The notes beneath the pieces are model-generated. The model saw only the letters and a program-made list of their open reading frames with translations, had not been told where the DNA came from and did no database searches. DNA of 64,000 bases from Glutamicibacter creatinolyticus (lineage in GTDB: Bacteria; Actinomycetota; Actinomycetes; Actinomycetales; Micrococcaceae): contig NZ_CP034412.1 of NCBI RefSeq assembly GCF_006094275.1, forward strand, positions 1,302,001-1,366,000, in the 5' to 3' direction. Below, in pieces: positions 568-55,507 of this stretch. Every line of letters starts with the position of its first letter. The first letter of the stretch is position 1. Made by a program: the position numbers and the translations under genes.

Positions 568-584
568 AAATTCTTGGGGAATTT
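568..584 (+). promoter_or_regulatory. Start-site hairpin with G-rich loop (small ORF 586)
   Basis: AAATTC (568-573) pairs exactly with GAATTT (579-584) around the loop TTGGG. One base separates the hairpin from the ATG at 586. It is one of a family of G-loop hairpins found in front of exopolysaccharide and sulfate-activation genes in this window. Confidence 0.6.
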
Positions 585-585
585 C

Positions 586-732
586 ATGGGGATACATCCT
601 GTACTTTTGAGCGCCCTAAATCGGGGCGCCCAATACCGCGCGGTGCTGAACGGCGAGCACCAGCCCGAGCGGAATCTGCGTCCGGCGATGACGGGGTCAC
701 TGACCGGACCAGTGCTGTGGGTCGCGCCATGA
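586..732 (+). CDS. Small 48-residue ORF translationally coupled to the PelF-like glycosyltransferase
   Basis: ATG at 586 opens a 48-codon frame ending in TGA at 730-732. The stop overlaps the ATG of the glycosyltransferase at 729 in an ATGA arrangement, typical of translational coupling. The product starts MGIHPVLLSALNRG, has no signal peptide or recognisable domain, and ends LWVAP. The TTGGGGA start-site motif is 6-12 bases upstream, as in other genes of the locus. It may be a real small protein or a coupling leader whose translation gates the downstream gene. No family is recognised. Confidence 0.45.
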   Translation: MGIHPVLLSALNRGAQYRAVLNGEHQPERNLRPAMTGSLTGPVLWVAP

Positions 733-2333
733 CCACTGCGCAGACCAATCAGAAGGAAAACTCCGCTGCTGCGCCAAAGGCCGGCGCAAGGATCCGTGTG
801 GCATTAATCGGGGAAGACACCTGCCCGGTCGCAATGGGCGCGTCGAACACCTGGAATGAGCAGCTGGTCAATGGGCTGCCGGATTACCACTTTGAGATCG
901 TGAAGCTGGTCGGGGATCAATCCATCCCGGTGAACCTCTCCAAGAGCCCGGCGCGCGTGAGCACGATCCCGGTAGGGGATCCACCATCCCGCGCCCGACT
1001 GACCGGACGCAAGGTTGAAGAGCAGCGGGTCAAGACCGCCTTGAACGAATTGTGGAACGCCGCCCTGCCGAAACAGGATCCGGAACAGTCCCACATCATG
1101 CAGGCCACCAGCGCGCTGAAGGAATTGGCCCGAGGCACCCGCCACCAGCTTGCGGGGACCCTGCACCGGATCAATAGCGCCGCACTGGTTGCCGAAGCGT
1201 GGAGCCGCCACCGCAGTGCCCGCCCGGAACTGCCGCACCTGACCACGGCACAGGCCGAACAGGTGGCGCATTACGCAAACCAGTTCCTGGCGGTGCTGGA
1301 TGTCCCCTGGCCGCAGGTGGATATCTGCCACGTGACCTCGAACGGTCCGGCAGTCTTGGTTGGCCTGGCCCGCTACTGGCGCGACGGCAGTCCGTTGCTG
1401 CTGACCGAACACGGAGTATGCCTGCGCGAACGCTACCAGGGCCTGGAAGATCTTGGCCTAGCGCACCCGGTGCGTACCGCACTGCTGGGGCTGTCCCGGG
1501 TGGTCTGCCAGGTGGCTTACGCCGAGGCCGCCAAGCTGCTTCCGGTCAATGAATTCTTGGCCAAGTGGGCCCGGCAGCTCGGGGCGGACAAGCAGCGCAT
1601 GCACACCGTGCATTACGGGGTGGATGCCGAGGCCTTCCCGGAGATCACCACCGAGCCGGAAGTGCCCACCGTTTCCTTCGTTGGGCCAATTGACCCCTCC
1701 ATGGACCTGGCCACCATGATCCGCGCCTTTGCCACCGTCACGCAGCGGATCCCGGAGGCCAAGCTGCGGATCTTTGGAAAGATTCCCAATCAGAAGCGGG
1801 AGTACTACCAGCAGCTGACCGCACTGGTGGAGGAACTGAAGCTGGGCAACGCAGTGAGCTTCGAGGACAAGGAGCCGAACACCCGCGAAGCCGCTGAGGC
1901 GGGGCACCTGGTGGCGCTGTCCTCGGTGTCGGAACGAGTTCCGTTCAGCGTGCTGGAGGCGATGGCCTGTGCCCGCGCCACGATCTCGACCGATGTGGGC
2001 GGAACCAGGGAAATCACCGGCCATGACGGACTCTCCGGTGCGCTGGTGCCGCGGCGCAGTCCGGAAGCACTGGCCAAGGAAATCATCCGGTTGCTGCTCG
2101 ATGGGCCGGCCCGGCGCCGCATGGGCTTTCGCGCCCGCGAACGGGCCATGGAGAAGTTCCCGCTGGAGTTGTTCCTCAGTCGCATGCGTGATGAGTACCG
2201 TCAGGTACTTGCCCCGGCACCGGTGTCGGCCGCTGCGGTGGTGCAGGGCGGGACGCCGCAAGCCACGAAGGAGCGCCCGTCGATGACCCAGCACGTGCTG
2301 CCGGCCTTGAAGACCGCCGCCCGGCAAGCATAG
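729..2333 (+). CDS. GT4 glycosyltransferase, PelF-like
   Basis: The 534-residue product has an N-terminal block (about residues 20-240) resembling the PelF/DUF3492 region, with a GEDTCPVAMGASNTW stretch and LLTEHGVCLRERY near residue 220. A GT-B nucleotide-sugar domain follows from about 310, with SERVPFSVLEAMA carrying the conserved Glu pair of the donor site. It probably transfers a sugar from a nucleotide donor during exopolysaccharide synthesis at the cytoplasmic side. The start at 729 is chosen over GTG 717 because it overlaps the stop of the small upstream ORF as ATGA. The cellulose-synthase-like GT2 further on is a likely partner, now separated by an IS remnant. Confidence 0.8.
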   Translation: MTTAQTNQKENSAAAPKAGARIRVALIGEDTCPVAMGASNTWNEQLVNGLPDYHFEIVKLVGDQSIPVNLSKSPARVSTIPVGDPPSRARLTGRKVEEQRVKTALNELWNAALPKQDPEQSHIMQATSALKELARGTRHQLAGTLHRINSAALVAEAWSRHRSARPELPHLTTAQAEQVAHYANQFLAVLDVPWPQVDICHVTSNGPAVLVGLARYWRDGSPLLLTEHGVCLRERYQGLEDLGLAHPVRTALLGLSRVVCQVAYAEAAKLLPVNEFLAKWARQLGADKQRMHTVHYGVDAEAFPEITTEPEVPTVSFVGPIDPSMDLATMIRAFATVTQRIPEAKLRIFGKIPNQKREYYQQLTALVEELKLGNAVSFEDKEPNTREAAEAGHLVALSSVSERVPFSVLEAMACARATISTDVGGTREITGHDGLSGALVPRRSPEALAKEIIRLLLDGPARRRMGFRARERAMEKFPLELFLSRMRDEYRQVLAPAPVSAAAVVQGGTPQATKERPSMTQHVLPALKTAARQA

Positions 2334-2349
2334 GGCTCGCCGACGCAGC

Positions 2350-2386: not shown

Positions 2387-2400
2387 CTCCCATCAGTGGC

Positions 2401-3000: not shown

Positions 3001-5325
3001 TTAGCGAATGCCTATGCGTTTGCGGCGGTCTTCCGAGCCCCGCAGGTCCCGGTTCAGGCGGCGGTCGCCCTGATACAGGATGGTGGCCCAGTCCGTGGTC
3101 TCCGGTGTTGCCTGGGGATGAACCGGCGCGGGCTGCGCCTTGGGCTTCGGCGCGACAAAAAGCCAGGAGATGAGTCCCAGGCTCATGTCCGCCACCGAGT
3201 TCTTGATTCCGACATAGGCGCGGATGGCGTAGGCGGCCAGGGTGGCGTTGATCGCCGCGAACAGCACGTTGCCCCAGTTCTGGTGCTGCAGATCCCGCCA
3301 CAGGGTGAACAGTGAGAAGATCACGATCAGGTAGGGGACCAGCACGTGCAGGGCCGGTGCCGCGGTTCGGTCACGGACCTTGGGGGTGCGGGCGAACGGG
3401 ATCTTTTCGCCGGTGAATGCCTGCTGGATGGATTTCAGGACTCCGGCGAGGTTCACCGGCAGCAGCACCAGGTTGAAGCCATAGATGCGGAAAATATCGC
3501 CGAAGCGGTGACCGCAGTCGCGCAGGTCGCTGCCCATGCACAAGAAGTAGGGGATCGCGGCGGCGAAGATCAGGGGGCTGAGCAGGCGGCTGTCATAGGG
3601 GTAGGCCAGGAGGAAGACCAGGCCGAAGCTGGCCCACGCGATGGAGGACATGTAGTTCACCCGCAACAGCACCTCCCGCAATCCCATGGGACGCCGTTCA
3701 CGGCGTCGCTCCCGGGCCTGGGTCCAGAGCTTGGGCATGATCAGCAATCCACCATTGGCCCAGCGGCGGCGCTGCACCACGAGGGAACCAAAGTCAGGGG
3801 GAGTGGCGCTGTAGCTCAGGCGTTCCGGGTAGTTCGACAAGCCCCACCCGTGGGTTCCCAGGTCGATGCTGGACTCGGTGTCCTCAATGACGGTGCGGTC
3901 CTGGATGTACGTATAGATCTCATAGCCGCCCACGGTGTTGACCTGGGCAATATCCTGCAGGGCGCGCTTGCGGATGACCGCGTTGGCTCCCACCCAGAAG
4001 GTGGCGTTGTACTGGGTCATGCCCTGATGCAGGATGTGCTGGATATCGGTGGTCGCCCCGGCGATGCGTTCGATCCGGGTCGGGGCACCGCGGAAGGAAG
4101 AGTACGGAGTCTGGGTGACGGCGATGCGCGAGTTCTCCTCGGATTCCAGGAAGTACACCAGGCGCAGGCAGTAATCACGAAGCAGCAGGGAATCGGCGTC
4201 CAACGTGAGCAGGTAGGTGCTGTCCGGGACGTGCAGCAGGTTATCGGAAGAGTGCTCCGTTGCCTCGGCTTGCGGTGTCGCCTGCTCCACCAGCACCAGC
4301 GCGTCCCCACGCTGTTCTTGACGCCAGGTCTTGCCCATGAGGCTGATGTACGAGTTCAGGTTCATGGCCTTGTTGGCCTCCTGGGAGAGACTGGCGTAAC
4401 GCTTGCGCTCGAAGTTGTCCATCTGTGCGGAGAAGATCCGCACCAGGCGCAAGTGCAGCTCTTCCATGCGTTCAAGGTCCGGTGCCGAGTGTTGTGCCGC
4501 GGCGGCCTCCAGGGCGAGCAAGGTCAAGCGCAGTTCACGGGACAGGCCCATGAGCACCGAATCAACGAAGAACTCCTCGACATGGTCGGTGACGGCCTCA
4601 TTGGCGGCCATGGAGTCCAGCCACTCGGCGGACCAACGGTAGGTGGCAATCAGCGCCGGCAACAGTGCTTCGGGGCTGGCATCCTGGGCACGGGCGGAAC
4701 GAAACGCCTGTAATTCCCTGCGGGTGTGGGCGGCCGGCTCGGCCAACGCGGTGGCGATTTGCCCGCTCAGCGCCCGCGTGGCGTCCAGGCGTTCTCTTAC
4801 CGCGGGATCGGTGGGGTGCGGATTGTCGTCAATCAGCAGCACAACCCGCAGCTGCGGGAATTCCTGCAGGGCCGCGGACCAGAGCGTGGCACGTACGACC
4901 GCCGGTTCCTCGGCATAGCTGGGTACCAGGACCGTAATCCCCTCGGTGTGTTCCCGAAAGTGCCGGTCCAGCTCTCCGCGCGGAACCCGCTGGTGGGTGG
5001 CGAACCGGTTCAGGGCTCCCTGGCGTGCCGTGAGGTACATCAGGGCAGAGAAGGTCAGGAACGTCACCACAATCAGATACAGCACCGCTTCGAACTGGAA
5101 TCGGAAGCCGGCCCCGGGATTGTTCGCCAGCTGGCGCAGGATGGTGGTGATGACATAGGCAACCCAGGACAGCACGGTCACCACAATGGCCACGCGTCCC
5201 CATGCCAGCTTGGCCTTGGAAGGGGTCGGGTGGACGATGGACAAGGGTTCGGAGCGTTTCTCAGATCCCCATTGCCGTCGCCGGCTTTCGGTCGCTTGAG
5301 CCGTGGTGTGCTTGCCTGCGCCCAT
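3001..5325 (-). CDS. Cellulose-synthase-like processive GT2, membrane-bound
   Basis: The 774-residue protein has two N-terminal membrane segments (about 40-110), then a GT2 catalytic domain: VLVPSYAEEP and LLIDDNP for donor binding, TLDADSLLL (DxD), TVIEDTESS (TED-like) and VVQRRRWANGG (QxxRW). About five further membrane segments follow. This is the layout of BcsA-type synthases that polymerise and extrude a polysaccharide. A stretch of about 200 residues is inserted between the first Asp and the DxD motif. No PilZ domain is visible. ATG 5325 follows a canonical GGGAGGAAA site. Clustering with the PelF-like GT4, a chitin-binding hydrolase and a GGDEF-EAL protein suggests a cyclic-di-GMP-associated surface glycan. 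Confidence 0.85.
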   Translation of the reverse strand: MGAGKHTTAQATESRRRQWGSEKRSEPLSIVHPTPSKAKLAWGRVAIVVTVLSWVAYVITTILRQLANNPGAGFRFQFEAVLYLIVVTFLTFSALMYLTARQGALNRFATHQRVPRGELDRHFREHTEGITVLVPSYAEEPAVVRATLWSAALQEFPQLRVVLLIDDNPHPTDPAVRERLDATRALSGQIATALAEPAAHTRRELQAFRSARAQDASPEALLPALIATYRWSAEWLDSMAANEAVTDHVEEFFVDSVLMGLSRELRLTLLALEAAAAQHSAPDLERMEELHLRLVRIFSAQMDNFERKRYASLSQEANKAMNLNSYISLMGKTWRQEQRGDALVLVEQATPQAEATEHSSDNLLHVPDSTYLLTLDADSLLLRDYCLRLVYFLESEENSRIAVTQTPYSSFRGAPTRIERIAGATTDIQHILHQGMTQYNATFWVGANAVIRKRALQDIAQVNTVGGYEIYTYIQDRTVIEDTESSIDLGTHGWGLSNYPERLSYSATPPDFGSLVVQRRRWANGGLLIMPKLWTQARERRRERRPMGLREVLLRVNYMSSIAWASFGLVFLLAYPYDSRLLSPLIFAAAIPYFLCMGSDLRDCGHRFGDIFRIYGFNLVLLPVNLAGVLKSIQQAFTGEKIPFARTPKVRDRTAAPALHVLVPYLIVIFSLFTLWRDLQHQNWGNVLFAAINATLAAYAIRAYVGIKNSVADMSLGLISWLFVAPKPKAQPAPVHPQATPETTDWATILYQGDRRLNRDLRGSEDRRKRIGIR

Positions 5326-11492: not shown

Positions 11493-13196
11493 ATGAGCCA
11501 GGAAACGACCCCAGATATCAAACCACGCTCCCGCGCGGTGACCGATGGTATCCATGCCGCTCCCGCCCGGGGCATGCTCCGCGCCGTGGGCATGGGTGAT
11601 GAGGACTTTGCCAAGCCCCAGATCGGTATCGCCAGCTCGTGGAACGAAATTACCCCGTGCAACCTTTCGCTGAACCGTTTGGCCCAGGGTGCCAAGGAAG
11701 GCGTTCACGCCGGTGGCGGCTTCCCGATGCAGTTCGGCACCATCTCCGTCTCGGACGGCATCTCCATGGGACACGAGGGAATGCACTTCTCGCTGGTCTC
11801 TCGCGAAGTGATCGCCGACTCGGTGGAAACCGTGATGATGGCCGAGCGCCTCGACGGCTCGGTCCTGCTGGCCGGTTGTGACAAGTCGCTGCCCGGCATG
11901 CTGATGGCCGCGGCCCGCCTGAACCTGGCTTCCGTATTCCTTTACGCCGGCTCCATCATGCCCGGTTGGGTGAAGCTGGAAGACGGCACGGAGAAGGACG
12001 TTACCCTGATTGACGCGTTCGAGGCCGTTGGCGCCTGCGCGGCAGGGAAGATGAGCGAAAAGGACCTGGACGCCATCGAACGGGCCATCTGCCCGGGCGA
12101 AGGCGCGTGCGGCGGCATGTACACCGCCAACACCATGGCCTCCATCGGTGAGGCCCTGGGCATGTCCCTGCCCGGTTCCGCCGCCCCGCCGTCGGCGGAC
12201 CGCCGCCGCGATATGTTCGCCCACCGCTCCGGTGAGGCCGTCGTGGAGATGCTGCGCAAGGGCATCCGCGCCCGCGACATCCTGACCAAGGAGGCCTTCG
12301 AGAACGCGATCGCCGTGACCATGGCGTTCGGCGGCTCCACCAACGCGGTGCTGCACCTGCTGGCCATCGCCCGCGAGGCCGAAGTGGATCTGACCCTGGA
12401 TGACTTCAACCGGATCGGTGACAAGGTTCCGCACCTGGCCGACCTGAAGCCCTTCGGCCGCTACGTGATGAACGACCTGGACCGCATCGGTGGTGTCCCG
12501 GTGGTCATGAAGGCGCTGTTGGATGCCGGGCTGCTGCACGGGGACTGCCTGACCGTCACCGGCAAGACCGTGGCCGAGAACCTGGCTCACATCGCCCCGC
12601 CGGATCCGGACGGCAAGATCCTGCGCGCCATGGACAACCCGATCCACAAGACCGGTGGGGTGACCATCCTGCACGGTTCGCTGGCTCCCGAGGGTGCGGT
12701 GGTGAAGTCCGCCGGTTTCGACGCCGACGTCTTCGAGGGCACCGCCCGCGTCTTCGAACGCGAACAGGGCGCCCTGGACGCCCTGGACAAGGGTGAGCTG
12801 AAGGCCGGGGATGTGGTGGTCATCCGCTATGAGGGCCCCAAGGGCGGACCAGGCATGCGCGAGATGCTGGCCATCACCGGCGCCATCAAGGGCGCCGGGC
12901 TGGGCAAGGACGTGCTGCTGTTGACCGATGGGCGCTTCTCCGGGGGCACCACCGGGCTGTGCATCGGCCACGTGGCCCCCGAGGCCGTGGACGGCGGACC
13001 GATTGCGTTCGTCGAGGACGGGGACAAGATCCGCGTGGACATCGAGGCCCGCAGCTTCGACCTGCTGGTGGATCCGCAGGAGCTTGAGGCCCGCAAGGTC
13101 GGCTGGGAGCCGCTGCCGGCCAAGTTCACCACCGGTGTGCTGGCCAAGTACGCCAAGCTGGTCAACTCGGCCTCCACCGGCGCATTCTGCGGCTGA
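11493..13196 (+). CDS. ilvD: Dihydroxy-acid dehydratase
   Basis: The 567-residue enzyme dehydrates 2,3-dihydroxy acids to 2-oxo acids in valine and isoleucine synthesis. Signature stretches are present: [31 protein letters not shown] and [19 protein letters not shown]. The cysteines in the CDK and GACGG motifs fit Fe-S ligands. ATG 11493 ([16 protein letters not shown]) agrees with the usual IlvD N-terminus, and the longer frame upstream is AT-rich and unlikely to be translated. A strong terminator follows, so ilvD is separate from ilvBNC. Confidence 0.95.
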
Positions 13197-13486: not shown

Positions 13487-15367
13487 ATGAGCAACGGAAA
13501 ACCTGCCAATCCGGCTACGGTTGCCAAGTCATTGAACCGCAGCAAGGATGCCACCGCTGTCTCTTCCGTCGTGGAGGCTTCGAACCCGGTCCAGGGTCCG
13601 AACAACATTGTCGCTCCCACGCAGATGACGGGCTCACAAGCCATCGTCCGTTCATTGGAAGAACTGGGCGTCAAGGACGTCTTCGGATTACCCGGTGGGG
13701 CCATCCTTCCCACCTATGATCCGCTCATGGACTCAACCAAGCTCAACCACATCTTGGTCCGCCATGAACAGGGTGCCGGCCATGCCGCACAGGGTTACGC
13801 CATGGTCACCGGGGAAGTGGGCGTATGCATCGCCACCTCCGGCCCGGGCGCAACCAACCTCGTCACCGCACTGGCCGATGCCAACATGGACTCGGTCCCG
13901 ATGGTGGCAATCACCGGACAGGTGAACAGCGCCTTCATTGGCTCTGACGCGTTCCAGGAAGCCGACATTGTCGGCATCACGATGCCCATCACCAAGCACG
14001 CCTTCTTGGTGACCAAGGCCGAGGACATCCCGCAGGTGCTGGCCAGCGCCTTCTACCTGGCCCAGAGCGGACGCCCGGGCCCGGTGCTGGTGGACATCAC
14101 CAAGGACGCGCAGACCGCGCAGACCGAGTTCTCCTGGCCGCCCAAGATCGACCTGCCCGGCTACCGGGTGGTCACCAAGGGCCACAACAAGCAGCTGCGC
14201 GAGGCCGCCAAGCTGATCGCCGCGGCCACCCGTCCGGTGCTCTACGTGGGCGGCGGGGTCATCAAGGCCGACGCCCACCAGGAACTGAAGGAATTCGCCG
14301 AGTACATCGGTGCCCCGGTGGTCACCACCCTGACCGCCCGCGGCGCCTTCCCGGACTCGCATGAACAGCATGTGGGCATGCCCGGCATGCACGGGGCCGT
14401 TTCGGCGGTCACCGCGCTGCAGCAGTCCGACCTGCTGATCACCCTGGGTGCGCGCTTCGATGACCGGGTCACCGGGGTGCTGCACACCTTCGCCCCGTAC
14501 GCGAAGGTGATCCACGCCGACATCGATCCGGCCGAGATCTCCAAGAACCGCACCGCGGACGTGCCGATTGTCGGTTCGCTGGATGAGATCATCCCGCAGC
14601 TGCATGCCGCTTGCCGCACCCGGTTTGAGACCGACCCGCAGCAGGACTTGAAGCCCTGGTGGGATCTGCTCAACCGCCTGCGCGACACCTACCCGATCGG
14701 CTGGACCGAAACCCATGACGGGCTCACCGCCCCGCAAAAGGTCATCGAACGCATCGGGGCCCTGACCGGCCCGGAGGGCGTGTTCGTGGCCGGGGTGGGT
14801 CAGCACCAGATGTGGGCCGCCCAGTTCGTGAAGTACGAGCGCCCGCGCTCCTGGCTGAACTCGGCCGGCCTGGGCACCATGGGCTACTCGGTGCCCGCCG
14901 CCATGGGCGCCAAGGTGGCCCAGCCCGAGCGCGTGGTCTGGGCGATTGACGGGGACGGCTGCTTCCAGATGACCAACCAGGAGCTGGCCACCTGCATGAT
15001 CAACCAGATCCCGATCAAGGTCGCGGTGATCAACAACTCCTCGCTGGGCATGGTCCGCCAGTGGCAGACCCTGTTCTACGATGCGCGGTACTCGAACACC
15101 GACTTGAACACCGGCCACGGCACCGCCCGGATCCCGGACTTCGTGAAGCTGGCGGACGCCTACGGCTGCGTGGGGCTGCGCTGCGAACGCGATGAGGACA
15201 TTGACGCGACCATCCAGAAGGCGTTGGAAATCAATGACCGCCCGGTGGTCATCGACTTTGTGGTCTCCGCCGACTCCATGGTCTGGCCGATGGTGCCGTC
15301 CGGGGTCAGCAACGACCAGATCCAGATTGCCCGGGGCATGACCCCGGAATGGGAAGAGGAGGACTAG
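13487..15367 (+). CDS. ilvB: Acetolactate synthase, large catalytic subunit
   Basis: The 626-residue thiamine-diphosphate enzyme condenses pyruvate with pyruvate or 2-oxobutyrate, the first common step of branched-chain amino acid synthesis. Motifs include [13 protein letters not shown] with the cofactor-activating Glu, [17 protein letters not shown], and the ThDP/Mg site [15 protein letters not shown] 50-residue N-terminal extension precedes the core, common in actinobacteria. ATG 13487 follows AGGAAGGATCCCG. It is the first structural gene after the attenuator and is followed five bases later by ilvN. Confidence 0.95.
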
Positions 15368-21956: not shown

Positions 21957-22157
21957 ATCGACGCCGAGCAGATGTCCCTATTATGGCATCAAGGTCAAGC
22001 CCTCAGCCCGACGTTGATGTTCGCTTTACTAGGCCTTAATAAGCAGACTTATTGGATCCGCGCTGACGGGATGCGCCGGGGAAGCGACACGTCACGCAGT
22101 GTCGTAACCCTCGTTTTCGCATTTGCTAACGAGTAACATGTCCTCCAAGACCTACCG

Positions 22158-22204
22158 GGCCCTTTTGGGGAGGGCCTGGATTTTATCCAGATCTTTGGGG
22201 GGAT
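22158..22204 (+). promoter_or_regulatory. Tandem leader hairpins with G-rich loops (LuxR 1)
   Basis: GGCCC/GGGCC (22158-22176) presents the loop TTTTGGGGA. CTGGAT/ATCCAG (22176-22190) follows directly. A third element, ATC-TTTGGGGG-GAT (22191-22204), carries the ribosome-site G-run eight bases before the ATG at 22212. The upstream loop thus repeats the motif at the start site. Confidence 0.55.
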
Positions 22205-22211
22205 AGGGTAA

Positions 22212-27265: not shown

Positions 27266-27794
27266 CGCCCGGAATTACCTACACCCGCTTCAAAGCTCAG
27301 CGGTTGGCGCACTCGCGGGGTAGCTCAATGCACTGGGTGGCCTCTCAATGGACCGCGCGCACTGCTGCTCAGCGGGTAACTGGTCCGTGCCCGCAACCAG
27401 TTGCGTAGCGGCATCTGCAAGTGACCAAGTCGCCGGGTGTATTTAGCTTCCAGAGGTTGGCTCATCTCTTGCCTATGTCGATTCGCTGTGCCCGAAAACC
27501 CTGGGCTGAGTGTGGACTACTTGGACTATCTGCGCAGAACGAGTGGTCAATGCCAAGAAATGGCAAACAAGCGCTTCAACTCGGGTGTGAGCTTACGCGT
27601 GAGTACTTCTTAGTTGGTTCATAGAATTTCCACTGTGCAGTGAGCCATGATCCCTAAGGGACGGTGCCGCTGCCTGAATTACAGATGAACACTTGGGGAA
27701 AATCTAGGCAAAATGGGGAGCCGAAGATTCTCGTGAAGCCCGTGCCTGAGCAGCACGTTAAGCCTCGCACAGCACTTCTTCACGGTATCGGCAT
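27266..27794. other. Intergenic region before the phosphoglycosyl transferase
   Basis: AACTGGT (27378-27384) pairs with ACCAGTT (27396-27402), a possible terminator for the LuxR pair. TAGAAT near 27622 is a possible -10. CTTGGGGA appears at 27692-27699 inside a weak AGAT/ATCT stem (27683-27705). An 8-codon ORF (27713-27736) ends in GTGA, overlapping an in-frame GTG of the next gene. No larger gene is supported. Confidence 0.4.
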
Positions 27795-27814
27795 CGCCAA
27801 CAAGGGGGACGGCG
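27795..27814 (+). promoter_or_regulatory. Start-site hairpin with G-rich loop (phosphoglycosyl transferase)
   Basis: CGCC (27795-27798) pairs with GGCG (27811-27814) around AACAAGGGGGAC. The last stem base is the first base of the GTG at 27814, the same geometry as at the SLC13 permease start. This supports 27814 as the real start. Confidence 0.45.
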
Positions 27815-29340: not shown

Positions 29341-29382
29341 ACGGCAAAGGCAGGGCAGCGGAGGCTGCCCTGCCTTTGCCGT
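29341..29382 (+). terminator. Terminator after the phosphoglycosyl transferase
   Basis: A perfect 19-bp stem (29341-29359 with 29364-29382) with a GGAG loop is followed by GTTTTAAA. This is a strong intrinsic terminator. Confidence 0.9.
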
Positions 29383-29978
29383 GTTTTAAAGTAACCACAA
29401 ATGACAGTAGTCGCAGGAACGGTGAGTTGTCATCGGGCCTCGCCTTGGCAATGACAACGCCGCGGAAGCCTTCGGAGCGCTGGACCCGGCGGGCCGGCGG
29501 CAAGCACCAGGGCGGCCACCGGTGATCTACGGGCAGCGGTAGAGCGTGCATGTGGTACGAGCGAGAGTGAACCACTTGTTGCAAAGGTCGGGATTAGGTA
29601 TTGACTACGCGTGTGAGGGCGGTCACCGGTTTGTAGCTTGGATGTAGGCGGAGGGATGGATCTTCCTGCCTGAGCGATCGTGCATGACGTCATGGCCGGG
29701 CTCGGGTGGGAAGTTCAATAATCAGCAGCGTTCCCCAGACGCGATTCATTTCTGCGCCTCATGGACGGGACCGGCGACGAAGACTCCCGGCAATTCGGGA
29801 GCTCATCCCCCCAGCCGTCGTCGGTCCCTTTCCATCGTTGTGTTCTTCGGCGTATTCCGCCAATCCCGGGCGGGACAGGGGCACGCGACTAAGGCCCACC
29901 GCAGGTGCACCGCGTTCCTTCGGGGCGGCCGCGGCAAGCGGGCCGGGAGGAGCGCGGATGCACCGGCACGCCCAGGAG
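29383..29978. other. Intergenic region before the sulfotransferase gene end
   Basis: About 600 bases without a supported gene. A 12-base palindrome CATGACGTCATG lies at 29683-29694. Short open frames here lack ribosome sites and domain features. The stretch could be decayed coding sequence. Confidence 0.4.
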
Positions 29979-31093: not shown

Positions 31094-31112
31094 GTGCCCT
31101 CCGTTGAGCGTT

Positions 31113-31213
31113 CTGCGTCATAGTCCCCAGACGACGCAAAAGGTGAATAGTTTCAGCTTTGAGTCTGCCATTGCGACGCAACATTTTGTAGAGGAACCGC
31201 CTAAATTGCGTCG
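31113..31213. promoter_or_regulatory. Repeated CGACGCAA sites in a divergent promoter region
   Basis: CGACGCAA occurs at 31132-31139 and 31174-31181 in the same orientation, 42 bp apart (four helical turns), and inverted as TTGCGTCG at 31206-31213. A partial inverted copy (TGCGTC) lies near 31114. The array sits between sulfotransferase 1 (minus) and the Wzz-like gene (plus), where a shared regulator could act. Confidence 0.5.
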
Positions 31214-31290
31214 AAGCGAGGAAATGTTGGCATGCCCCCTGCCCATGTTCGGTGTCTTATGCCACAATTACTCAAATGGGGAAGAATTAT

Positions 31291-31312
31291 CTTGGGGACC
31301 CCAAGCTGGGGG
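31291..31312 (+). promoter_or_regulatory. Leader switch with G-rich motif (Wzz 1)
   Basis: CTTGGGG (31291-31297) pairs perfectly with CCCCAAG (31299-31305) around a single A. The same CCCC can instead pair with GGGG of the ribosome site (31308-31311). The two pairings exclude each other, so this leader can hide or expose the GGGGGA before the ATG at 31318. Confidence 0.5.
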
Positions 31313-31317
31313 AAATT

Positions 31318-36296: not shown

Positions 36297-36382
36297 CCTT
36301 GCGCCTGCCTTCCTGCGCAACCTCACCGGTTTTCTGTCCGTAACACTGTTCAGTAGCCAGCACACGGGCTAAGCTCGAGACA

Positions 36383-36425
36383 CCGAGTATTTGGGGATCT
36401 CGGTCCATCAGTCTTTGGGGAGGCT
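36383..36425 (+). promoter_or_regulatory. Two start-site hairpins with G-rich loops (lipoprotein)
   Basis: CCGAG/CTCGG (36383-36403) presents TATTTGGGGAT as its loop. AGTC/GGCT (36410-36425, one G-U pair) presents TTTGGGGA and lies three bases before the TTG at 36429. The same motif is therefore shown twice in one leader. Confidence 0.6.
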
Positions 36426-36428
36426 CAC

Positions 36429-37164: not shown

Positions 37165-37188
37165 GATGACCTTTTGGGGGAGGACATC
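37165..37188 (+). promoter_or_regulatory. Start-site hairpin with G-rich loop (PssD-like gene)
   Basis: GATG (37165-37168) pairs with CATC (37185-37188) and, across an A-A mismatch, CC with GG. The loop is TTTTGGGGGA. The ATG at 37189 follows with no gap. Confidence 0.65.
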
Positions 37189-37638
37189 ATGAAGGTACTT
37201 TTTGTTACATCGCCGGGGGGACACCTGGCCCAGCTGCTGCCGCTGCGGGAGTGGTGGGAACAGCACCAACGCAGCTGGGTGACGTTCCGGCGTCCGGAAG
37301 TGGAGCAGGCGCTGGAGGGGGAAAACGTCACGTGGTGCTATTGGCCCACCACCCGCAACATTCCCAACGCCATCCGCAACTTCTTCCTGGCCATTCGCAC
37401 GCTGCGCCGGGAGCGGCCCGATGTGGTCATGTCGGTGGGGGCCGGGGCCAGCGTTCCCTTTTTCCTGATTGCCTACGTCATGGGCATCAAGACCGTGTAC
37501 CTGGAATGCTTTGACCGCATCACCATGCCGACGCTGAGCGGACGCATCTGCTACCCGCTGACCGACCTGTTCTGCGTGCAGTGGGATGAACAGAAGAAAT
37601 ACTATCCGGAGGCCGTGAACATTGGGGCCGTGCTGTGA
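37189..37638 (+). CDS. PssD/Alg14-like glycosyltransferase membrane subunit
   Basis: The 149-residue protein begins MKVLFVTSPGGHLAQLLPL, the N-terminal signature of Alg14/PssD/CpsF proteins, and has a hydrophobic anchor (VPFFLIAYVMGIKTVYLE). In this family it recruits and activates a separate catalytic partner, encoded by the next gene with a 4-base GTGA overlap. Together they would add the second sugar to the lipid-linked unit. ATG 37189 is set by the abutting G-loop hairpin. Confidence 0.85.
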   Translation: MKVLFVTSPGGHLAQLLPLREWWEQHQRSWVTFRRPEVEQALEGENVTWCYWPTTRNIPNAIRNFFLAIRTLRRERPDVVMSVGAGASVPFFLIAYVMGIKTVYLECFDRITMPTLSGRICYPLTDLFCVQWDEQKKYYPEAVNIGAVL

Positions 37639-38398: not shown

Positions 38399-38414
38399 CA
38401 TGGGGGAGTACATG
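38399..38414 (+). promoter_or_regulatory. Start-site hairpin with G-rich loop (acyltransferase 2)
   Basis: CATG (38399-38402) can pair with CATG (38411-38414) around GGGGAGTA, and the downstream arm includes the ATG at 38412. The stem is only 4 bp and self-complementary, so it is one of the weaker members. Confidence 0.4.
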
Positions 38415-44858: not shown

Positions 44859-44884
44859 CGGTTTACATCCCCAGTTAGAAACCG
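44859..44884 (-). promoter_or_regulatory. Start-site hairpin with G-rich loop (polymerase)
   Basis: On the minus strand CGGTTT (44884-44879) pairs exactly with AAACCG (44864-44859). The loop is CTAACTGGGGATGT. The ATG at 44858 follows with no gap. Confidence 0.65.
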
Positions 44885-45159
44885 AACCCGGCCGCCACGT
44901 GGTGACGCCGAGTTTGAAACTGACGCCAGCCTACCGACAAAGCGTTGACGAAGGGAAGGGGATGACGCGCCAGGAGCGCCGTGCCGCGGCGGATTGCAGT
45001 AGCCCATCACGAATCGAGTATCAGGCGAGTAGTGAATCCAAGTAGTTCGGAGTAGTTAACGAGTATGGGGTCGCGGTTACCACTATTCCTGTGTCCCGGA
45101 TTGCTACCCATAATTAGGTCAGTTGTCGTCCTTTCGGCGGCGCTATGTCACTGGCATTG
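44885..45159. promoter_or_regulatory. Divergent promoter region with helically phased GAGTA repeats
   Basis: (G/A)AGTA occurs at 45016, 45027, 45040, 45050 and 45061, spaced 11, 13, 10 and 11 bases, so the copies lie on nearly one face of the helix. The array lies upstream of the PKD protein gene and between it and the divergent polymerase gene. It resembles a direct-repeat binding array for a response regulator. Clear promoter hexamers were not assigned. Confidence 0.45.
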
Positions 45160-45185
45160 CCAACTTGGGGTTGGTTTGGGGGAAC
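45160..45185 (+). promoter_or_regulatory. Start-site hairpin with G-rich loop (PKD protein)
   Basis: CCAAC (45160-45164) pairs exactly with GTTGG (45170-45174) around TTGGG. A weaker GTT/AAC stem (45174-45185) presents TGGGGG just before the ATG at 45189. Confidence 0.6.
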
Positions 45186-45188
45186 ATC

Positions 45189-48100
45189 ATGAGAGTCAAG
45201 AGATTCTTTGCGGCCGTGGCTGGCCTGGCAATGATCTTGGGGTTAACAGGGATTAATGCGATACCGGCCTCCGCGTCGGATCAGGAATACAACTCCGTGG
45301 TTTCTGCCACGCCACGGAACAACACACCCCACGTACTGGATGGAATTGTCTTTTCCATCGCCGAAGTGGGGAACATGATCGTGCTGGGCGGATCCTTCAC
45401 CCAGGTCCAAGCCGCCAATGGCGGCCCGGTCCTGACAAGGAACCGCCTGGTTGCGTTTAACAAGGACACCGGGGCGATCAGCACCAGCTTCGCCCCGAAC
45501 CTGAACAGCACCGTGCGTTCGGTCATCGCCGCACCGGATGGCAATTCGGTGTACGTCGGTGGACAGTTCGGTACGCTCAACGGCCAGTCGGCTCCCAAGG
45601 TGCTGCGGCTGAATGTGGGCAACGGGCAACGGATCACCCAATTCAACCCGGGCCAGATCAACGCTGTGGTGCATGACATGAACCTGGTGGGGGACCGGCT
45701 CTTCTTCGGCGGCGAATTCACCGCCGTGCGCGGGCAGGAACGCCTGGGCCTGGCCGAGGTGAACGCCACCAGCGGGGCGCTGTCCGAGCGCACCAAGGTC
45801 GCCTTCACCGATACCCACCGTGGAGGGATCACCTTCGTGCACAAGTTCGATGTGGATGCCGCCGGCAAGAAGATGGTGGCTACCGGCAACTTCCGCTACA
45901 TCGATGGGCAGGACCGAGTGCAGGTGGGCGTGCTGGATATTTCCGGTGCCCAGACCAACGTGGCCGACTGGCAGACCGAGCGCTGGAAGCCGAACTGCTA
46001 CCCGTCCTTCGCCTACTACCTCAACGATTTGGACTTCGCCCCCGACGGCAGCTACTTCGTGCTCTCATCCATGGGCGGCTACGGCAGTGGTCCGCCCACC
46101 CTGTGTGACACCATCTCCCGCTGGCAGAGTGATGACAGCGGTGCCGGCATCAACCCGGTGTGGGTGGACTACACAGGTGGTGACAGTGTCTACGCGCTGG
46201 AAGCCACACAGAACACCATTTACTTCGGTGGGCACATGCGTTGGGTCAACAACCCGTTCCGCGCCGACGCCGCCGGGCAGGGCGCCGTGGGACGCGAAGG
46301 CATTGGTGCGCTGAACGCTTCCAACGGCATGCCCATCGAATGGAACCCGGGACGCGACCGGGGCCGCGGCGTCTTTGACCTGTTGGCGACCAAGGACGGG
46401 CTCTGGGTGGGTTCGGATACAGACCGTATCGCCCGCTACGTGTACAAGGGGCGCATCGCACTGTTCCCGCTGGCCGGAGGCACTGAAATCCCGTCAGCCG
46501 AACCACCTGCACTGCCGGTGGACGTCGTGCAGGCCGGGGCGCTGTCCTCCAACCAGGATCCGCGCTACCTTTACCGCATCAACTCCGGGGGCGACACCAT
46601 CCCGGCAGTGGATGGCGGGATGGACTGGCTGGGCGATAACAACGCCCCGGGCAGCAACTACCGCAGCAGCGGGAACAACAGCGCCGGCTATGACGCCGTC
46701 GGTTCGCTGAGCGACAAGGTGCCCGAATCAACGCCGCGCGGGATCTACTCCAGCGAGCGCTGGGACCCAGCCGGCGGGGAGAAGCTGCAGTACAACTTCC
46801 CGGTGGACTCCGGGAAGAACGTTGAGGTGCGGGTGTACCTGGCCGACCGGTGCAACTGCACCACCGCCCCGGGCTCGCGTGTCTACAACCTGGATGTCGA
46901 GGGCAGCCGCGCCTACAGCAACATCGACCTGAACGCTGACCCGGGCCACAATATCGGCACCATGCTCAGCAAGCGGGTGGTCAGCGATGGCAGCATCAAC
47001 ATCACCTTCGACCATGTCACTGAGAACCCGGCCGTAAACGGCGTGGAGATCGTGGACCTGGATGCCCAGGCCCCGGACCCAGGGGCCAGCGCACAAGTAA
47101 ACGAAACCTACTTTGACGGCACCAGCGCCGCGTCCAAGGGCGCCACCAAGCTCACCGGGAACGTGAACTGGGATGCGGTGCGTGGCGGTTTTGTGGCCGA
47201 TGGCCGGATGTACTTCGCGATGGCCGACGGCACTTTCGTCAGTCGAACGCTGAACGGCAATACGCTGGGCAACGCGGCCACCCATGATCTGTATGGGCTG
47301 ACCAACTTCTCCAGCGAGGCGCAGCAGATGACGGGGCTGTTCTTCAAGAACGACCGGATCTACTTCACCCTGAGCGGGCAGAACGCCCTGTTCATGCGCT
47401 ACCTGGATTTGGACAGCGGGATTATCGGGGCCGAACGCTTCACGGTGGCCACCGCGTCTGCGCAGGTGCCCTGGAGTGCGGTGCGCGGTATGTTCCAGGC
47501 CGGTGACAAACTCTACCTGGCCACCCCAGATGGCGACCTGATGGCCGCCAACTGGCGGCAGGGTGTCACCGACGGCACGGCCGAGGGACCCACCCAGGTG
47601 GTTTCCGGGCCGGACAAGGACGGGGCGAACTGGGCCAGTCGGGCGCTGATCTCGATGACCAGCGATGGGGCGCCGCCGCTGCCGAACAAACCGCCGACCG
47701 CGGACTTCGGCTCGGAATGCACCGATTTGGGATGTGCCTTTGACGCCTCGGGATCCGCGGATTCCGATGGGGAGATCAAGGACTACGCCTGGAACTTCGG
47801 GGACGGCAAGACCGGTACCGGCAAACAGGTCGAGCACCAGTACGCCGAGGCCGGGGACTATGAGGTCACCCTCACGGTCACCGACGATGACGGGGCGACG
47901 GCGACCAAGACCGTCACGGTCACGGTCACCGCGCCTGAGAACCAGGCACCGACCGCCCAGATCACCCAAACCTGTGATCAGCTGGCGTGCGAGTTCTCCG
48001 GTGCGGACTCCAGCGACCCGGACGGTGAAATCGCCTCCTACGCCTGGAGCACCTCCGATGGCGGCAGCGGTGAAGGAGCCACCTTCAGCCACGAATTCGC

Positions 48101-50532: not shown

Positions 50533-50575
50533 ACCCATATGGGGTGGGTTTCATGGCAATACAGGGGGAGTATTG
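50533..50575 (+). promoter_or_regulatory. Double start-site hairpin with G-rich loops (SLC13 permease)
   Basis: ACCCA/TGGGT (50533-50549) presents TATGGGG. CAATAC/GTATTG (50557-50575) presents AGGGGGA in a perfect 6-bp stem whose last base is the first base of the GTG start. This is the clearest member of the family and decides the start codon. Confidence 0.7.
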
Positions 50576-52338: not shown

Positions 52339-52344
52339 CCCGCA

Positions 52345-52409: not shown

Positions 52410-53600
52410 CTAGTGGACGTGTACGGCTTCCGGCGTGTGGGCCGCCAGCAGCGCAAAGACCCGGTCGGTGGCGGTATTCAAATCCACGACCGATAGATCC
52501 AGGGTGAGCTCGGCATCCTCGGGAACCTCGTAGGGGGAATCAATTCCCGTGAAGTCCTTGACCTCTCCCGCCCGGGCCTTGGCATACAGTCCCTTCCGGT
52601 CCCGCTGCTCACATACCTCCAGCGGGGTGCTCACGTGCACCAGCAGGAACCGTCCATGCGGCGCGACCAGCTCACGCACCGCCTGACGGGTTTGGGCAAA
52701 CGGCGCGATGGGGGCGCACAAGGCCAGACCACCGACCTCGGCAATGCGGGCGGCAATCCACCCGATGCGTTCCACATTGGTTTCGCGGTCTTCACGTGAG
52801 AAACCCAGTCCCTTGGAGATGAAGCGGCGGATGTCATCCCCATCCAGCAGCACGGCCGGGCGTCCCAGTTGCTCATGGATGCGCTGCTGTACCGCGCGGG
52901 CCAACGTGGATTTGCCGGACCCCGATAAACCACTGAACATCACCACCGTGCCCGGGGCAGCCTCGGGCTGCTGGTGCCGCGCGGAGCGGAAATCGGCGAG
53001 CACATTCCCGGAAAGACGCTGGATCAGTGCCGCTGCGTCCACCGAAGGCGGAACTACCAGATGCCCCGCGGTGCTGCCGGAGAAAAGGCCGGACGCCGCC
53101 CGCAATTGCTTGATGGCCCCGGCATGCCCGGGACCCGAAGACCGGTCGCTGGGGCTGAGCAGCACAAAACAGGTGCCGTTGGGCAACGGCTGCAGCTGCT
53201 GCAGCCGTTGCAGGTCCACAGCCGACGGTGCCTGGTCAAAAAGCACCACGGCTCGTGGACCGAGCGGCGAAGTCAGGCGCAGTTCACGAAACGGCCCGTG
53301 TTCGGCATCGGCCAGCTTCTGTACTTTTCCCACCGTCACGGCAGTCTGCCCCGGGTCCGACTGCCGGGTGTAGGAGACGCGCACCAGCGGTGTGCCATCG
53401 GGATCGGCCAGCTGAATGTGTCCCCTCTGCCCGGGATTGGCCAAGGCAGCGTCCGGGAGTTGCGACCATTGCGGAAGGTTTTCCAGATCCAACCCCTGGT
53501 GATCGAGCAGACCTCCCACGATGAGTTCCACGATGTCGAGCTGGGCAATATCCAGCTGCACGATCGGATCCTGATGCGGGATCGACCCCATGTTTTCCAT
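52410..53600 (-). CDS. cysC: Adenylyl-sulfate kinase with N-terminal sulfurylase-like domain
   Basis: The C-terminal half (about 205-390) is an APS kinase: FSGLSGSGKSTLARAV (P-loop), LDGDDIRRFISKGLGFS and DRETNVERIGWIAARIAE, making PAPS from APS and ATP. The N-terminal half (about 60-195) resembles the PUA-like N-terminal part of ATP sulfurylase (EHGPFRELRLTSPLGPRAVV) but is too short to be an active sulfurylase. ATP sulfurylase activity would come from CysDN nearby. ATG 53600 is fixed by the overlapping hairpin. It is divergent from the cysQ-cysD-cysN operon. Confidence 0.85.
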   Translation of the reverse strand: MENMGSIPHQDPIVQLDIAQLDIVELIVGGLLDHQGLDLENLPQWSQLPDAALANPGQRGHIQLADPDGTPLVRVSYTRQSDPGQTAVTVGKVQKLADAEHGPFRELRLTSPLGPRAVVLFDQAPSAVDLQRLQQLQPLPNGTCFVLLSPSDRSSGPGHAGAIKQLRAASGLFSGSTAGHLVVPPSVDAAALIQRLSGNVLADFRSARHQQPEAAPGTVVMFSGLSGSGKSTLARAVQQRIHEQLGRPAVLLDGDDIRRFISKGLGFSREDRETNVERIGWIAARIAEVGGLALCAPIAPFAQTRQAVRELVAPHGRFLLVHVSTPLEVCEQRDRKGLYAKARAGEVKDFTGIDSPYEVPEDAELTLDLSVVDLNTATDRVFALLAAHTPEAVHVH

Positions 53601-53619
53601 ACTTTCCCCCAAGAAGTAT
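53599..53619 (-). promoter_or_regulatory. Start-site hairpin with G-rich loop (cysC)
   Basis: On the minus strand ATACTT (53619-53614) pairs exactly with AAGTAT (53604-53599) around CTTGGGGGA. The ATG at 53600 shares its first two bases with the stem, so the start codon itself is partly paired. Confidence 0.7.
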
Positions 53620-53740: not shown

Positions 53741-53808
53741 GTCTTGGGGAAGACCTTGGATTTGTTTTGGGAGCAAAAGGGGGATGCTTCATTGGGGGAT
53801 TTACAATG
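53741..53808 (+). promoter_or_regulatory. Leader hairpins with G-rich loops (cysQ)
   Basis: GTCTT/AAGAC (53741-53754) has GGGG as its loop. CATTG/CAATG (53790-53808) surrounds GGGGATTTA at the proposed TTG start. AAAAGGGGGA lies between them. Confidence 0.5.
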
Positions 53809-54538
53809 CGCTATCGACCTGGCCGAAGGTGCCGGGAAGAAGCTTCTTCAACTTCGTGACCGGGCCGGCGAACTAGGCCTGGAGGGCAGGGAACTCAAGG
53901 ACGCTGGGGACAGAACAGCCCAGGAATTTCTCGCGCAATCCTTGCACCAGCTCCATCCGCAGGACGCCGTCCTCTCCGAGGAGGCCGTGGATGACAAGTG
54001 CCGCCTCGATAGCCGACGGGTCTGGATCATTGATCCGTTGGATGGCACACGGGAGTATTCAGAATTCCGGGATGACTGGGCCGTGCACGTTGCCCTGTGG
54101 GAAGACGGAGAGTTGTCGGCAGGTGCCGTTGCGTTGCCGGGGCTTGGCCTTGTCCTGGACAGCGCCGAACAGGACATGCCGATGACCGTTGGCCCGGCCC
54201 GCCCGTGGCGCATCGCCGTCTCGCGCAGTCGCCCTCCGCAGATCGTGCACCAGCTGGCACAGAACGCGGAGGTTGAACTGGTGCCCATGGGCTCGGCCGG
54301 CTACAAAGTCTGCGCGGTGGTCAGGGGAGAGGTGGACGCCTACGTTCACGCCGGAGGCCAATACGAATGGGACTCGGCAGCTCCGGTGGCGGTCGCCCAG
54401 GGCAAGGGCTTGCACACCAGCCGGGTCGACGGAAGCCCGCTGGAGTACAACCGTGCCGATCCCTACCTACCGGACCTGGTGGTCTGCCATCCGGCGCTGA
54501 AGCGTGAACTGTTTGAAGCCGTACACGCCTTCGCCTAG
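53792..54538 (+). CDS. cysQ: 3'-phosphoadenosine-5'-phosphate phosphatase (CysQ-type)
   Basis: The protein belongs to the inositol-monophosphatase family with VLSEEAVDD, WIIDPLDGTREYSEF and YEWDSAAPVAVAQ metal-binding motifs. It hydrolyses PAP, the by-product of PAPS-dependent sulfotransfer, back to AMP. Alignment in memory with the M. tuberculosis CysQ N-terminus places the start near MGDLQCAIDLAEGAGK, so TTG 53792 (after AAAAGGGGGATGCTTCA) is chosen. TTG 53744 is an alternative. It is the first gene of a cysQ-cysD-cysN operon, which fits removal of PAP from sulfotransferase reactions. Confidence 0.8.
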   Translation: MGDLQCAIDLAEGAGKKLLQLRDRAGELGLEGRELKDAGDRTAQEFLAQSLHQLHPQDAVLSEEAVDDKCRLDSRRVWIIDPLDGTREYSEFRDDWAVHVALWEDGELSAGAVALPGLGLVLDSAEQDMPMTVGPARPWRIAVSRSRPPQIVHQLAQNAEVELVPMGSAGYKVCAVVRGEVDAYVHAGGQYEWDSAAPVAVAQGKGLHTSRVDGSPLEYNRADPYLPDLVVCHPALKRELFEAVHAFA

Positions 54539-54563
54539 ACACCTACAACAAACGTTCATTCAC

Positions 54564-54579
54564 TGAATTTGGGGGTTCA
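54564..54579 (+). promoter_or_regulatory. Start-site hairpin with G-rich loop (cysD)
   Basis: TGAA (54564-54567) pairs with TTCA (54576-54579) around TTTGGGGG, four bases before the ATG at 54584. The stem is short (4 bp), but the motif and position match the family. Confidence 0.45.
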
Positions 54580-54583
54580 CTCG

Positions 54584-55507
54584 ATGAAACTAAAAACTGC
54601 CACGAGTATGCGGTATCAGCTGGATCAGCTGACCGCGCTGGAGGCTGAATCAATATTTATCATCCGTGAGGTCGTCGCGGAACTGGAGCGCCCGGGATTG
54701 CTGTTCTCCGGAGGCAAGGACTCGGCGGTGCTGCTGCACCTGGCGGCCAAGGCCTTCGCCCCGGCAGCCATCCCGTTCCCGGTGGTGCATATCGACACCG
54801 GTCACAATTTCCAGGAGGTGTTGGACTTCCGGGACGCCGAGGTGGCTCGGCGCGGAGTCCGCCTCATCGTCGGGTCCGTGCAGGAAGCCATCGACGCCGG
54901 CGAGGTGGTCGAGGAACGCAACGGCTCACGCAACCGGATCCAAACCCCGGTGCTGCTGGACACCATTGAAAAGCACCAGCTGAATGCGCTGATGGGCGGA
55001 GCCCGCCGGGATGAGGAGAAGGCCCGCGCCAAGGAACGGGTCTTTTCCTTCCGTGACGAATTCGGGCAATGGGATCCGAAGAACCAGCGTCCCGAGCTGT
55101 GGAGCCTGTACAACACCCGGATCAATCTGGGGGAGAGCATCCGGGTGTTCCCGTTGTCCAACTGGACCGAACTGGATATCTGGAACTACATCGAACGTGA
55201 AAACGTTCAGTTGCCCTCCATCTACTTCGCCCACCAGCGCCAGGTGTTCGACCGCAACGGGATGCTCTTTGCCGTGCACCCGTTCTGTCAGCCGCGGGAA
55301 GATGAGCCGGTGCGCAACCAGATGGTTCGCTATCGGACCGTGGGGGACGCCAGCCTCACCGCGGCCGTGGCATCCACCGCGATGACGGCGGCGGAAATTG
55401 TGGAGGAGGTGGCCACCACCACGATCACCGAACGCGGGGCCACCCGCGGAGATGACCAAGTGAGCGAAGCGGCGATGGAAGACCGCAAGAAGGAAGGGTA
55501 CTTCTAG
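54584..55507 (+). CDS. cysD: Sulfate adenylyltransferase small subunit
   Basis: The 307-residue protein has the PP-loop FSGGKDSAVLLHLAAKA near residue 45 and family stretches VVHIDTGHNFQEVLDFRD and GGARRDEEKARAKERVFSF. With CysN it makes APS from ATP and sulfate. ATG 54584 is preferred over TTG 54569 because of the G-rich site. The cysN ATG begins two bases after its stop. Confidence 0.93.
   Translation: MKLKTATSMRYQLDQLTALEAESIFIIREVVAELERPGLLFSGGKDSAVLLHLAAKAFAPAAIPFPVVHIDTGHNFQEVLDFRDAEVARRGVRLIVGSVQEAIDAGEVVEERNGSRNRIQTPVLLDTIEKHQLNALMGGARRDEEKARAKERVFSFRDEFGQWDPKNQRPELWSLYNTRINLGESIRVFPLSNWTELDIWNYIERENVQLPSIYFAHQRQVFDRNGMLFAVHPFCQPREDEPVRNQMVRYRTVGDASLTAAVASTAMTAAEIVEEVATTTITERGATRGDDQVSEAAMEDRKKEGYF

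Follow-up and report, generated by a model that had tools for sequence, protein, structure and literature searches.

The stretch of DNA considered here (the window) comprises 64,000 nucleotides (nt) of Glutamicibacter creatinolyticus, positions 1302001 to 1366000 of a single-contig 3.31-Mb genome. It contains a block of polysaccharide and sulfate genes, many of whose leaders share a G-rich motif, and a putative C-rich small RNA (sRNA) that carries the complement of this motif. In silico, the leader sites are enriched in the block and show an excess of hairpins, the sRNA has a conserved structure complementary to the sites, and the two co-occur within the genus. By Pfam assignment, two LuxR-family regulators (starts 22212 and 24719) stand at the head of the block, which also has a bacterial sugar transferase (start 27664 or 27814) and sulfotransferase-family proteins (31093 and 42235). 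Further Pfam assignments include a polysaccharide-synthesis membrane protein, Alg14-like and glycosyltransferase-28-like proteins, acyltransferases, a glycosyltransferase, and a PKD-repeat protein, together with APS kinase, a CitMHS-family transporter, an inositol-phosphatase-family protein, a PAPS-reductase-domain protein, and a GTPase. These domains point to a sulfated exopolysaccharide cluster plus its sulfate supply.

The family Micrococcaceae is shared with Paeniglutamicibacter, whose genome G022 is the most syntenic relative used; two others, G191 and G095, belong to the genus of the window. In the fetched stretch of G022, 21 of 25 block proteins were matched with cluster order kept, and no match was found there for acyl38412, acyl21942, the 20085 protein, and serA. 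G191 and G095 share the block in part. Gene starts were called with an ad hoc gene finder, so that counts per gene are approximate. Because the genomes are related, their sites do not count as independent, which the Fisher and binomial values given below do not take into account.

When the intergenic spaces were scanned for hairpins with a C-rich loop, one was GCGT-TCCCCAG-ACGC at 29728 to 29742 on the forward strand (hairpin I), identical in G022, with a loop complementary to CUGGGGA. It lies within a putative sRNA at 29646 to 29831 (+), the 5′ end of which is approximate and derived from the −10 element. The 3′ part, 29767 to 29831 (+), forms a terminator-like stem with a short U tract. The stem (GGGACCGGCGACG/CGTCGTCGGTCCC, with CCCCCCAGC unpaired) is a 13-pair helix in which 99.4% of cells are paired across 40 aligned matches. 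A second exposed C-rich motif, UCCCCCCAG, adjoins the stem, and UCCCCCCAGC at 29806 to 29815 (+) is left single-stranded by the structure of the model; 39 of the 40 matches contain CCCCAG. In folds of longer stretches, hairpin I is not always the sole option. The loop TCCCCAG stays constant while the stem changes from GCGT/ACGC to ACGG/CCGT, and in G095 the hairpin I loop is unchanged on a covarying stem. G022 has two sRNA copies, the second with a broken pair in hairpin I and the loop TTCCCCAT. Among four sequences, both sides change in 9 of 23 pairs (1 of 500 shuffles equally good); among the 40 matches, in an alignment fitted to the model, both sides change in 15 of 22 pairs (0 of 500). Conserved structure with covariation is what is looked for in a trans-acting sRNA. 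We regard 29646 to 29831 as putatively encoding a structured RNA with conserved, covarying stems; it has a promoter-like box and a terminator-like stem, as a transcript of its own would.

The putative promoter (29607 to 29639, +) consists of an ACGCGTG box, a 20-nt spacer, and a −10 sequence TAGCTT. The arrangement ACGCGTG-N20-21-TAnnnT stands ahead of the sRNA and also ahead of the sugar transferase in the window (transferase copy at 27595 to 27627), G022, and G095. This common layout suggests shared control, perhaps via the neighboring LuxR proteins. A perfect 18-bp inverted repeat directly follows the sugar-transferase stop (29342 to 29381) and is likely a terminator dividing that gene from the sRNA.

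The covariance model of the sRNA (R1) matches 29722 to 29840 with 117 bits, the window being a model-building sequence. At E≤0.05, it has matches in 223 of the 395 genomes of the family, a count that may be too high, since some low-scoring matches are mere palindromes lacking the C motif, although the stricter filters applied may also lose some members. No Rfam family matched the sRNA region or any part of the block, and the literature searches made returned no description of the sRNA.

The leader motif was defined from G-runs ahead of gene starts. Runs of five or more Gs occur within the last 25 nt before 10 of 24 block starts versus 28 of 599 genome starts in an 800-kb sample (Fisher 2e-7), and TTGGGG precedes 5 of the 24 and 4 of the 599. 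The block runs lie directly upstream of many starts, with T before and A or T after. In ten sRNA-bearing clusters, the flanks of 105 runs of four to six Gs show T (52%) or C (22%) at −2, T (76%) at −1, and A (69%) at +1; the values for 120 control runs from the window's own genome are 12%, 35%, 28%, and 40%. The resulting consensus, YUGGGG(G)A, occurs at 96 sites for 252 genes of the ten clusters, G022 included, versus 9 for 647 genes of the own-genome sample. A G-run is present in 16 block leaders of the window, 9 of them with the strict consensus, and some leaders hold two or three copies. Block genes lacking a site are luxR24719, flip32870, alg13_37635 (TTGGGGC only), h41369, aph43459, cysN, and 34567, all of which except 34567 overlap or closely trail the preceding gene. 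A reading made earlier from the sequence only had listed ilvB, ilvN, ilvC, cysN, the GT2 at 5325, and serA as free of the motif; serA, cysN, and three of four leaders taken as ilv indeed lack any run of four Gs, and in the fourth there is just CCGGGGC.

The leader consensus YUGGGG(G)A and the UCCCC(C)AG of the sRNA are reverse complements, with G-U pairing allowed at the end. The YUGGGG(G)A loop is a likely pairing site because it complements an unpaired motif of an sRNA from the same cluster. Predicted duplexes of the 16 G-run leaders range from −9.8 to −17.5 kcal/mol with the hairpin I motif and from −12.0 to −19.2 kcal/mol with the terminator motif, compared with −4.0 to −11.9 and −2.7 to −13.3 kcal/mol for 15 other leaders. 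The cysN and serA leaders are predicted to pair poorly with the sRNA motifs. The UUGG of the leader sites would also agree with YUNR, a loop turn known to occur in targets of antisense RNAs.

The sequence-only reading had proposed that hairpins with a constant G-rich loop link the block starts. Pairing of G-run flanks was scored as p values for stems against shuffled flanks, using sites of the form [AT]GGGG+[AT] in the strict test. With one mismatch allowed and 15 hand-reviewed starts, p<0.1 was obtained at 9 of 23 window sites versus 5 of 96 control sites, a comparison in which controls stood at machine-called starts and the choice of starts favors the window. With perfect stems at machine-called starts, p≤0.1 was obtained at 6 of 25 window sites versus 8 of 110 controls (Fisher 0.024). 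The most convincing excess came from G022, G191, and G095, which had no part in the discovery: 16 of their 61 sites had p≤0.05, versus 3 of 110 sites sampled from the window's own genome (Fisher 6e-6). On a rerun the counts were 13 of 61 and 2 of 110, as values near the threshold vary (G095, 4 of 15, then 1 of 15). At the same threshold, seven more distant clusters gave 0 of 29, ten clusters 25 of 176 versus 2 of 110, and five further genomes of the genus 6 of 43. Among the 96 strict sites, p≤0.05 was reached at 15 and p≤0.2 at 44 (about 5 and 19 expected; binomial 8e-5 and 1e-8), and 43 have no 4-bp stem. When all G-runs anywhere were counted, coding sequence included, the block showed no excess (24% versus 28% at −2 kcal/mol), so the signal is positional only and confined to leaders; for the window taken by itself, this leader-bound signal is of moderate strength. 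The hairpin excess is real and involves about a quarter of sites in the strict test. The observation of the sequence-only reading is largely, though not wholly, confirmed: G-runs are enriched and hairpins are in excess, but a hairpin does not stand at every site. The idea of an RNA-level element common to the cluster leaders is supported by its recurrence in relatives on different stems, among them GAAATTT-GGGGA-AAATTTC, CTTGT-ATTGGGGA-ACAAG, GTTTTC-TTGGGG-GGAAAC, and GCAGCT-GGGGG-AGCTGC. The transporter hairpin has two compensated pairs between the window and G022, a comparison of two sequences in which 133 of 500 shuffles were equally good.

Among 18 genomes of the genus, the element with its C motif was found in 12, nine by score and three (G198, G023, and G051) via inspection of weak matches; in two of the latter, it lies 400 to 600 nt ahead of the transferase. 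In each of the 12, the transferase is at least 47% identical. In G200 and G202, where the identity is just 41 to 42%, the cluster is diverged and lacks the element, and four further genomes show neither. Site density follows the same division: 96 sites for 252 genes in the ten clusters, 20 for 76 in G198, G023, and G051, and 2 for 47 in G200 and G202 (Fisher 1.6e-4). In other genera, the element is of terminator type, and the hairpin I loop is not conserved in most of them. It lies no more than about 600 nt after a same-strand open reading frame (ORF) of 866 to 939 amino acids in 13 of 15 genomes, these being the genomes where the pattern located the element among 18 loci searched. LuxR similarity was found at 12 of 30 loci holding the element.

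Copies of the element flank the sugar-transferase gene on both sides in G075 (locus L120, about 11786 to 11887 and 14039 to 14155) and G201 (L156, 9892 to 10000 and 12198 to 12314), apparently an intermediate between both arrangements. In G302 (L124, about 10035), a copy is not next to a LuxR-size gene; we take the starts of the neighboring genes to resemble arabinose isomerase and arabinofuranosidase. At three loci from three genomes (L125, L128, and L135), the gene after the element, which presumably starts like a SufS-type cysteine desulfurase, adjoins a large ORF of regulator size.

Given these findings, we infer, with a probability of about two in three, that a cluster-encoded C-rich sRNA is transcribed, pairs with G-rich ribosome sites, and represses in the manner of 6C/B11. 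An RNA of about 190 nt would be transcribed from the space that follows the initiating sugar-transferase gene, with a promoter laid out like the one of that gene, and would expose two C-rich motifs, UCCCCAG in the loop of hairpin I and UCCCCCCAG next to the stem of the terminator. In 16 block leaders, the complementary G-run would lie over or just ahead of the ribosome site, partly in the loops of hairpins with arbitrary stems. By pairing with these sites, through loop-loop contact wherever a hairpin is present, the sRNA would mask the ribosome site. Masking would lower translation of the pathway, including that of one of the two LuxR-family regulators, which would constitute feedback; control by the LuxR proteins is likewise presumed. 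Since a leader can have several sites and the sRNA has two motifs, binding might be bidentate.

Related systems are known. B11/6C of Mycobacterium marinum is reported to repress lipooligosaccharide genes through a seed in its C-rich terminator loop; its loops contain six and nine Cs, G tracts lie close to the ribosome sites of its targets, and repression is regained in part when compensatory changes are made (PMC12395582). In Mycobacterium abscessus, B11/6C reportedly acts on a G tract in a 5′ untranslated region (PMC10470900). For Staphylococcus aureus RNAIII, C-rich loops are reported to meet G-rich loops of the rot and coa mRNAs and to cover the ribosome site (PMC2837412). The window RNA would by analogy work like both. 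Like 6C/B11, it has two C-rich unpaired motifs, one of them in the terminator (window, first G022 copy, and G095). Unlike 6C/B11, its motifs, UCCCC(CC)AG beside the terminator stem and within a 7-nt loop, have four Cs in loop I and six Cs beside the terminator stem, off its apex; it is encoded within the cluster it apparently serves, and some target sites lie in small hairpin loops. 6C RNAs have apical loops with runs of at least six Cs. The 6C model RF01066 matched neither the sRNA region (E≤10) nor 20 loci with family members (E≤1), and its best match in the genome lies elsewhere, with 18.7 bits versus a threshold of 47; the model also falls below the cutoff in Corynebacterium glutamicum, so the sensitivity of this comparison is limited. 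Because the Rfam model is not matched and the C runs are placed differently, the sRNA is not filed as 6C. The proposed contact of C-rich sRNA loops with G-rich mRNA loops over the ribosome site is shared with RNAIII, whereas RNAIII adds a long imperfect duplex with coa and targets scattered virulence genes rather than one pathway cluster.

The simplest alternative is that the G-run is a G-rich Shine-Dalgarno variant favored here, the stems being due to chance and the C-rich RNA an unrelated terminator. Wobble pairing allows GGGGG(A/U) to bind the 16S tail, the run ends no more than 10 nt from the predicted start in 35 of 96 sites, and many genomes of the family have TTGGGGGA before ATG more often than its mirrored control. 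The strong preference for U at −1 and Y at −2 is not needed for a Shine-Dalgarno role by itself. The additional copies farther upstream, the hairpin excess, and the near absence of sites from the two clusters without the sRNA also speak against this explanation, which we consider unlikely. Less probable still is an RNA-binding protein that reads YUGGGGA loops in the fashion of CsrA, with the sRNA a decoy or irrelevant. CsrA/RsmA regulons are marked by GGA hairpin loops over ribosome sites, and the variable stems and fixed GGA-containing loop have that look; for part of the sites, GGA does lie in a hairpin loop at the ribosome site, with A at +1 in 69%. However, the regulator proposed here is a complementary RNA, and the sRNA holds the complement of the loop rather than copies of it, which speaks against a CsrB-like decoy. 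The sequence-only reading had also noted the likeness to CsrA targets, and that idea fails because the genome has no CsrA gene above the cutoff (PF02599 best E 0.29, 13.4 bits versus a cutoff of 27; 3 of 14 control genomes pass), other RNA-binding proteins not having been searched for. A repeated DNA operator at promoters, bound for example by both LuxR-family proteins, would agree with the two regulator genes at the block head and with the repetition of some sites at 10 to 30 bp. We hold it to be very improbable: many sites have their Gs in the coding strand, complementary flanks, and a position at a start codon or just ahead of it, CCCC precedes 0 of 23 block starts (but does precede 6 of 41 in G022), and another box, ACGCGTG, occupies the promoter-like sequences.

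Several observations weigh against pairing by the sRNA as the explanation of the sites. Hairpin p values exceed 0.2 at 52 of the 96 strict sites, and the hairpin fraction in other genera (4 of 60) is not significantly below the 25 of 176 of the ten clusters (p=0.17). In an initial leader test, for which starts had been badly placed, p≤0.05 was reached at only 2 of 18 sites in the window, 1 of 8 in G022, 0 of 8 in G191, and 4 of 16 in G095 versus 8 of 263; the leaders were retested with per-genome gene calls after this weak result. Duplex energies overlap those of leaders without the motif (GT5325, −11.9 and −12.9 kcal/mol; lysR-type, −8.0 and −13.3 kcal/mol), and block gene 34567 has its own leader yet no site. 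Three of the 12 genus genomes are credited with the sRNA only by inspection of weak matches. Other genera have the terminator-type element, yet sites are rare in the fetched loci (9 for 326 genes), so in those genera it has another function or other places of action. In G075 and G181, the element falls within an ORF whose frame is open through it (L120, 14039 to 14155, and L122, 10316 to 10427) and leads into lipoprotein-like sequence. Finally, the excess of TTGGGGGA-N3-9-ATG extends to genera without an sRNA match (e.g., g6, g22, and g26), so TTGGGGGA serves as a plain ribosome site too; in the window's own genome, 4 of 9 occurrences fall in the window.

Beyond repression by the sRNA itself, we give marginally better than even odds to a fuller account, in which a new Micrococcaceae sRNA family linked to LuxR and exopolysaccharide genes gained a dedicated regulon in one genus and Paeniglutamicibacter, and a second C-rich loop in the lineage of the window. 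The regulon would be a lineage-specific addition. Receptor hairpins would be conserved only in the loop, and one RNA would tune assembly, polymerization, sulfation, and sulfate supply by kissing. If true, this would be a pathway-wide riboregulator of Micrococcaceae on a par with 6C/B11, and would suggest that actinobacteria have come convergently to use C-rich sRNAs for their surface polysaccharides. A single RNA would then suffice to tune a bacterial pathway for a sulfated polysaccharide, and the many natural target variants would provide a system for measuring loop-loop regulation.

The individual leaders differ in number and strength of sites. Two G-loop sites precede the LuxR-family gene at 22212 (22155 to 22209, +; p=0.003 and 0.10), both conserved in G022; the first is the hairpin CCGGGCCC-TTTTGGGGA-GGGCCTGG at 22155 to 22179 (+). 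At the GTG start of the sugar transferase, the hairpin CGCC..GGCG (27795 to 27814, +) is conserved in G022 (p=0.12) and G095 (p=0.20). The sulfotransferase-family gene at 31093 has a hairpin at 31111 to 31141 (−; p=0.003), and its G022 leader has a different stem, CGCTT-GGGG-AAGCG (p=0.11). Three TGGGG(G)A sites before 31318 (31278 to 31313, +) show no detected hairpin, and G022 also has three G-runs. Two hairpins precede 36429 (36382 to 36428, +; p=0.017 and 0.24), the first being ACCGAG..CTCGGT at 36382 to 36404, with CGAACA-TAGGGG-TGTTCG (p=0.007) as the G022 counterpart. The Alg14-like gene at 37189 has one hairpin (37165 to 37188, +; p=0.05, one mismatch), and the acyltransferase at 38412 a weak site (38399 to 38414, +; p=0.33). 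Neither the GGGGGT site at 42235 nor that at 40519 is conserved in G022. Before 44858, CGGTTT..AAACCG (44859 to 44884, −) has p=0.07 with a mismatch, was not found in the strict test, and is conserved in G022 as CGGTT..AACCG. Two G-run sites before the PKD-repeat gene at 45189 (45159 to 45188, +) have nonsignificant stems (p=0.41 and 1.0), and both are present in G022.

Among the sulfate and transport genes, the CitMHS-family transporter (GTG, 50575) has two hairpins (50533 to 50575, +; p=0.08 and 0.03), the first, at 50533 to 50549, being the one with two compensated pairs relative to G022 and the second identical in G022, near-identical in G191, and absent from G095. ATACTT..AAGTAT precedes the APS kinase gene at 53600 (53599 to 53619, −; p=0.44 with one mismatch allowed and 0.16 in the strict test). 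Three sites precede the inositol-phosphatase-family (cysQ-like) gene at 53806 (53741 to 53805, +; p=0.08, 0.06, and 0.31), the first at 53741 to 53754, and G022 has GTCTT-GGGG-AAGAT at the matching place. TGAA-TTTGGGGG-TTCA (54564 to 54579, +; p=0.21 with one mismatch allowed and 0.09 in the strict test) precedes the PAPS-reductase-domain gene at 54584, with the G-run conserved in G022, G191, and G095. The sequences listed in the sequence-only reading at 27814, 36429, 37189, 38412, 42235, 44858, 45189, 50575, 53600, 53792, and 54584 are all present, the start given as 53792 being better placed at the ATG at 53806. Some of the stems it proposed are supported, and several are individually nonsignificant, e.g., those at 53600 and 38412. 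Its gene start at 586 is not sustained, as the first stop follows after 48 codons and the opposite-strand neighbor has AGGAGG. The hairpins at 22155 to 22179, 31111 to 31141 (−), 36382 to 36404, 50533 to 50549, and 53741 to 53754 are additions to that list.

Elsewhere in the window, a stand-alone integrase-core fragment (rve) lies amid polysaccharide genes at 2454 to 2936. Two glycosyltransferase-family genes at 59085 to 63211 have third-position GC contents of 0.51 and 0.53, below those of the other called genes, and are possibly recent arrivals.

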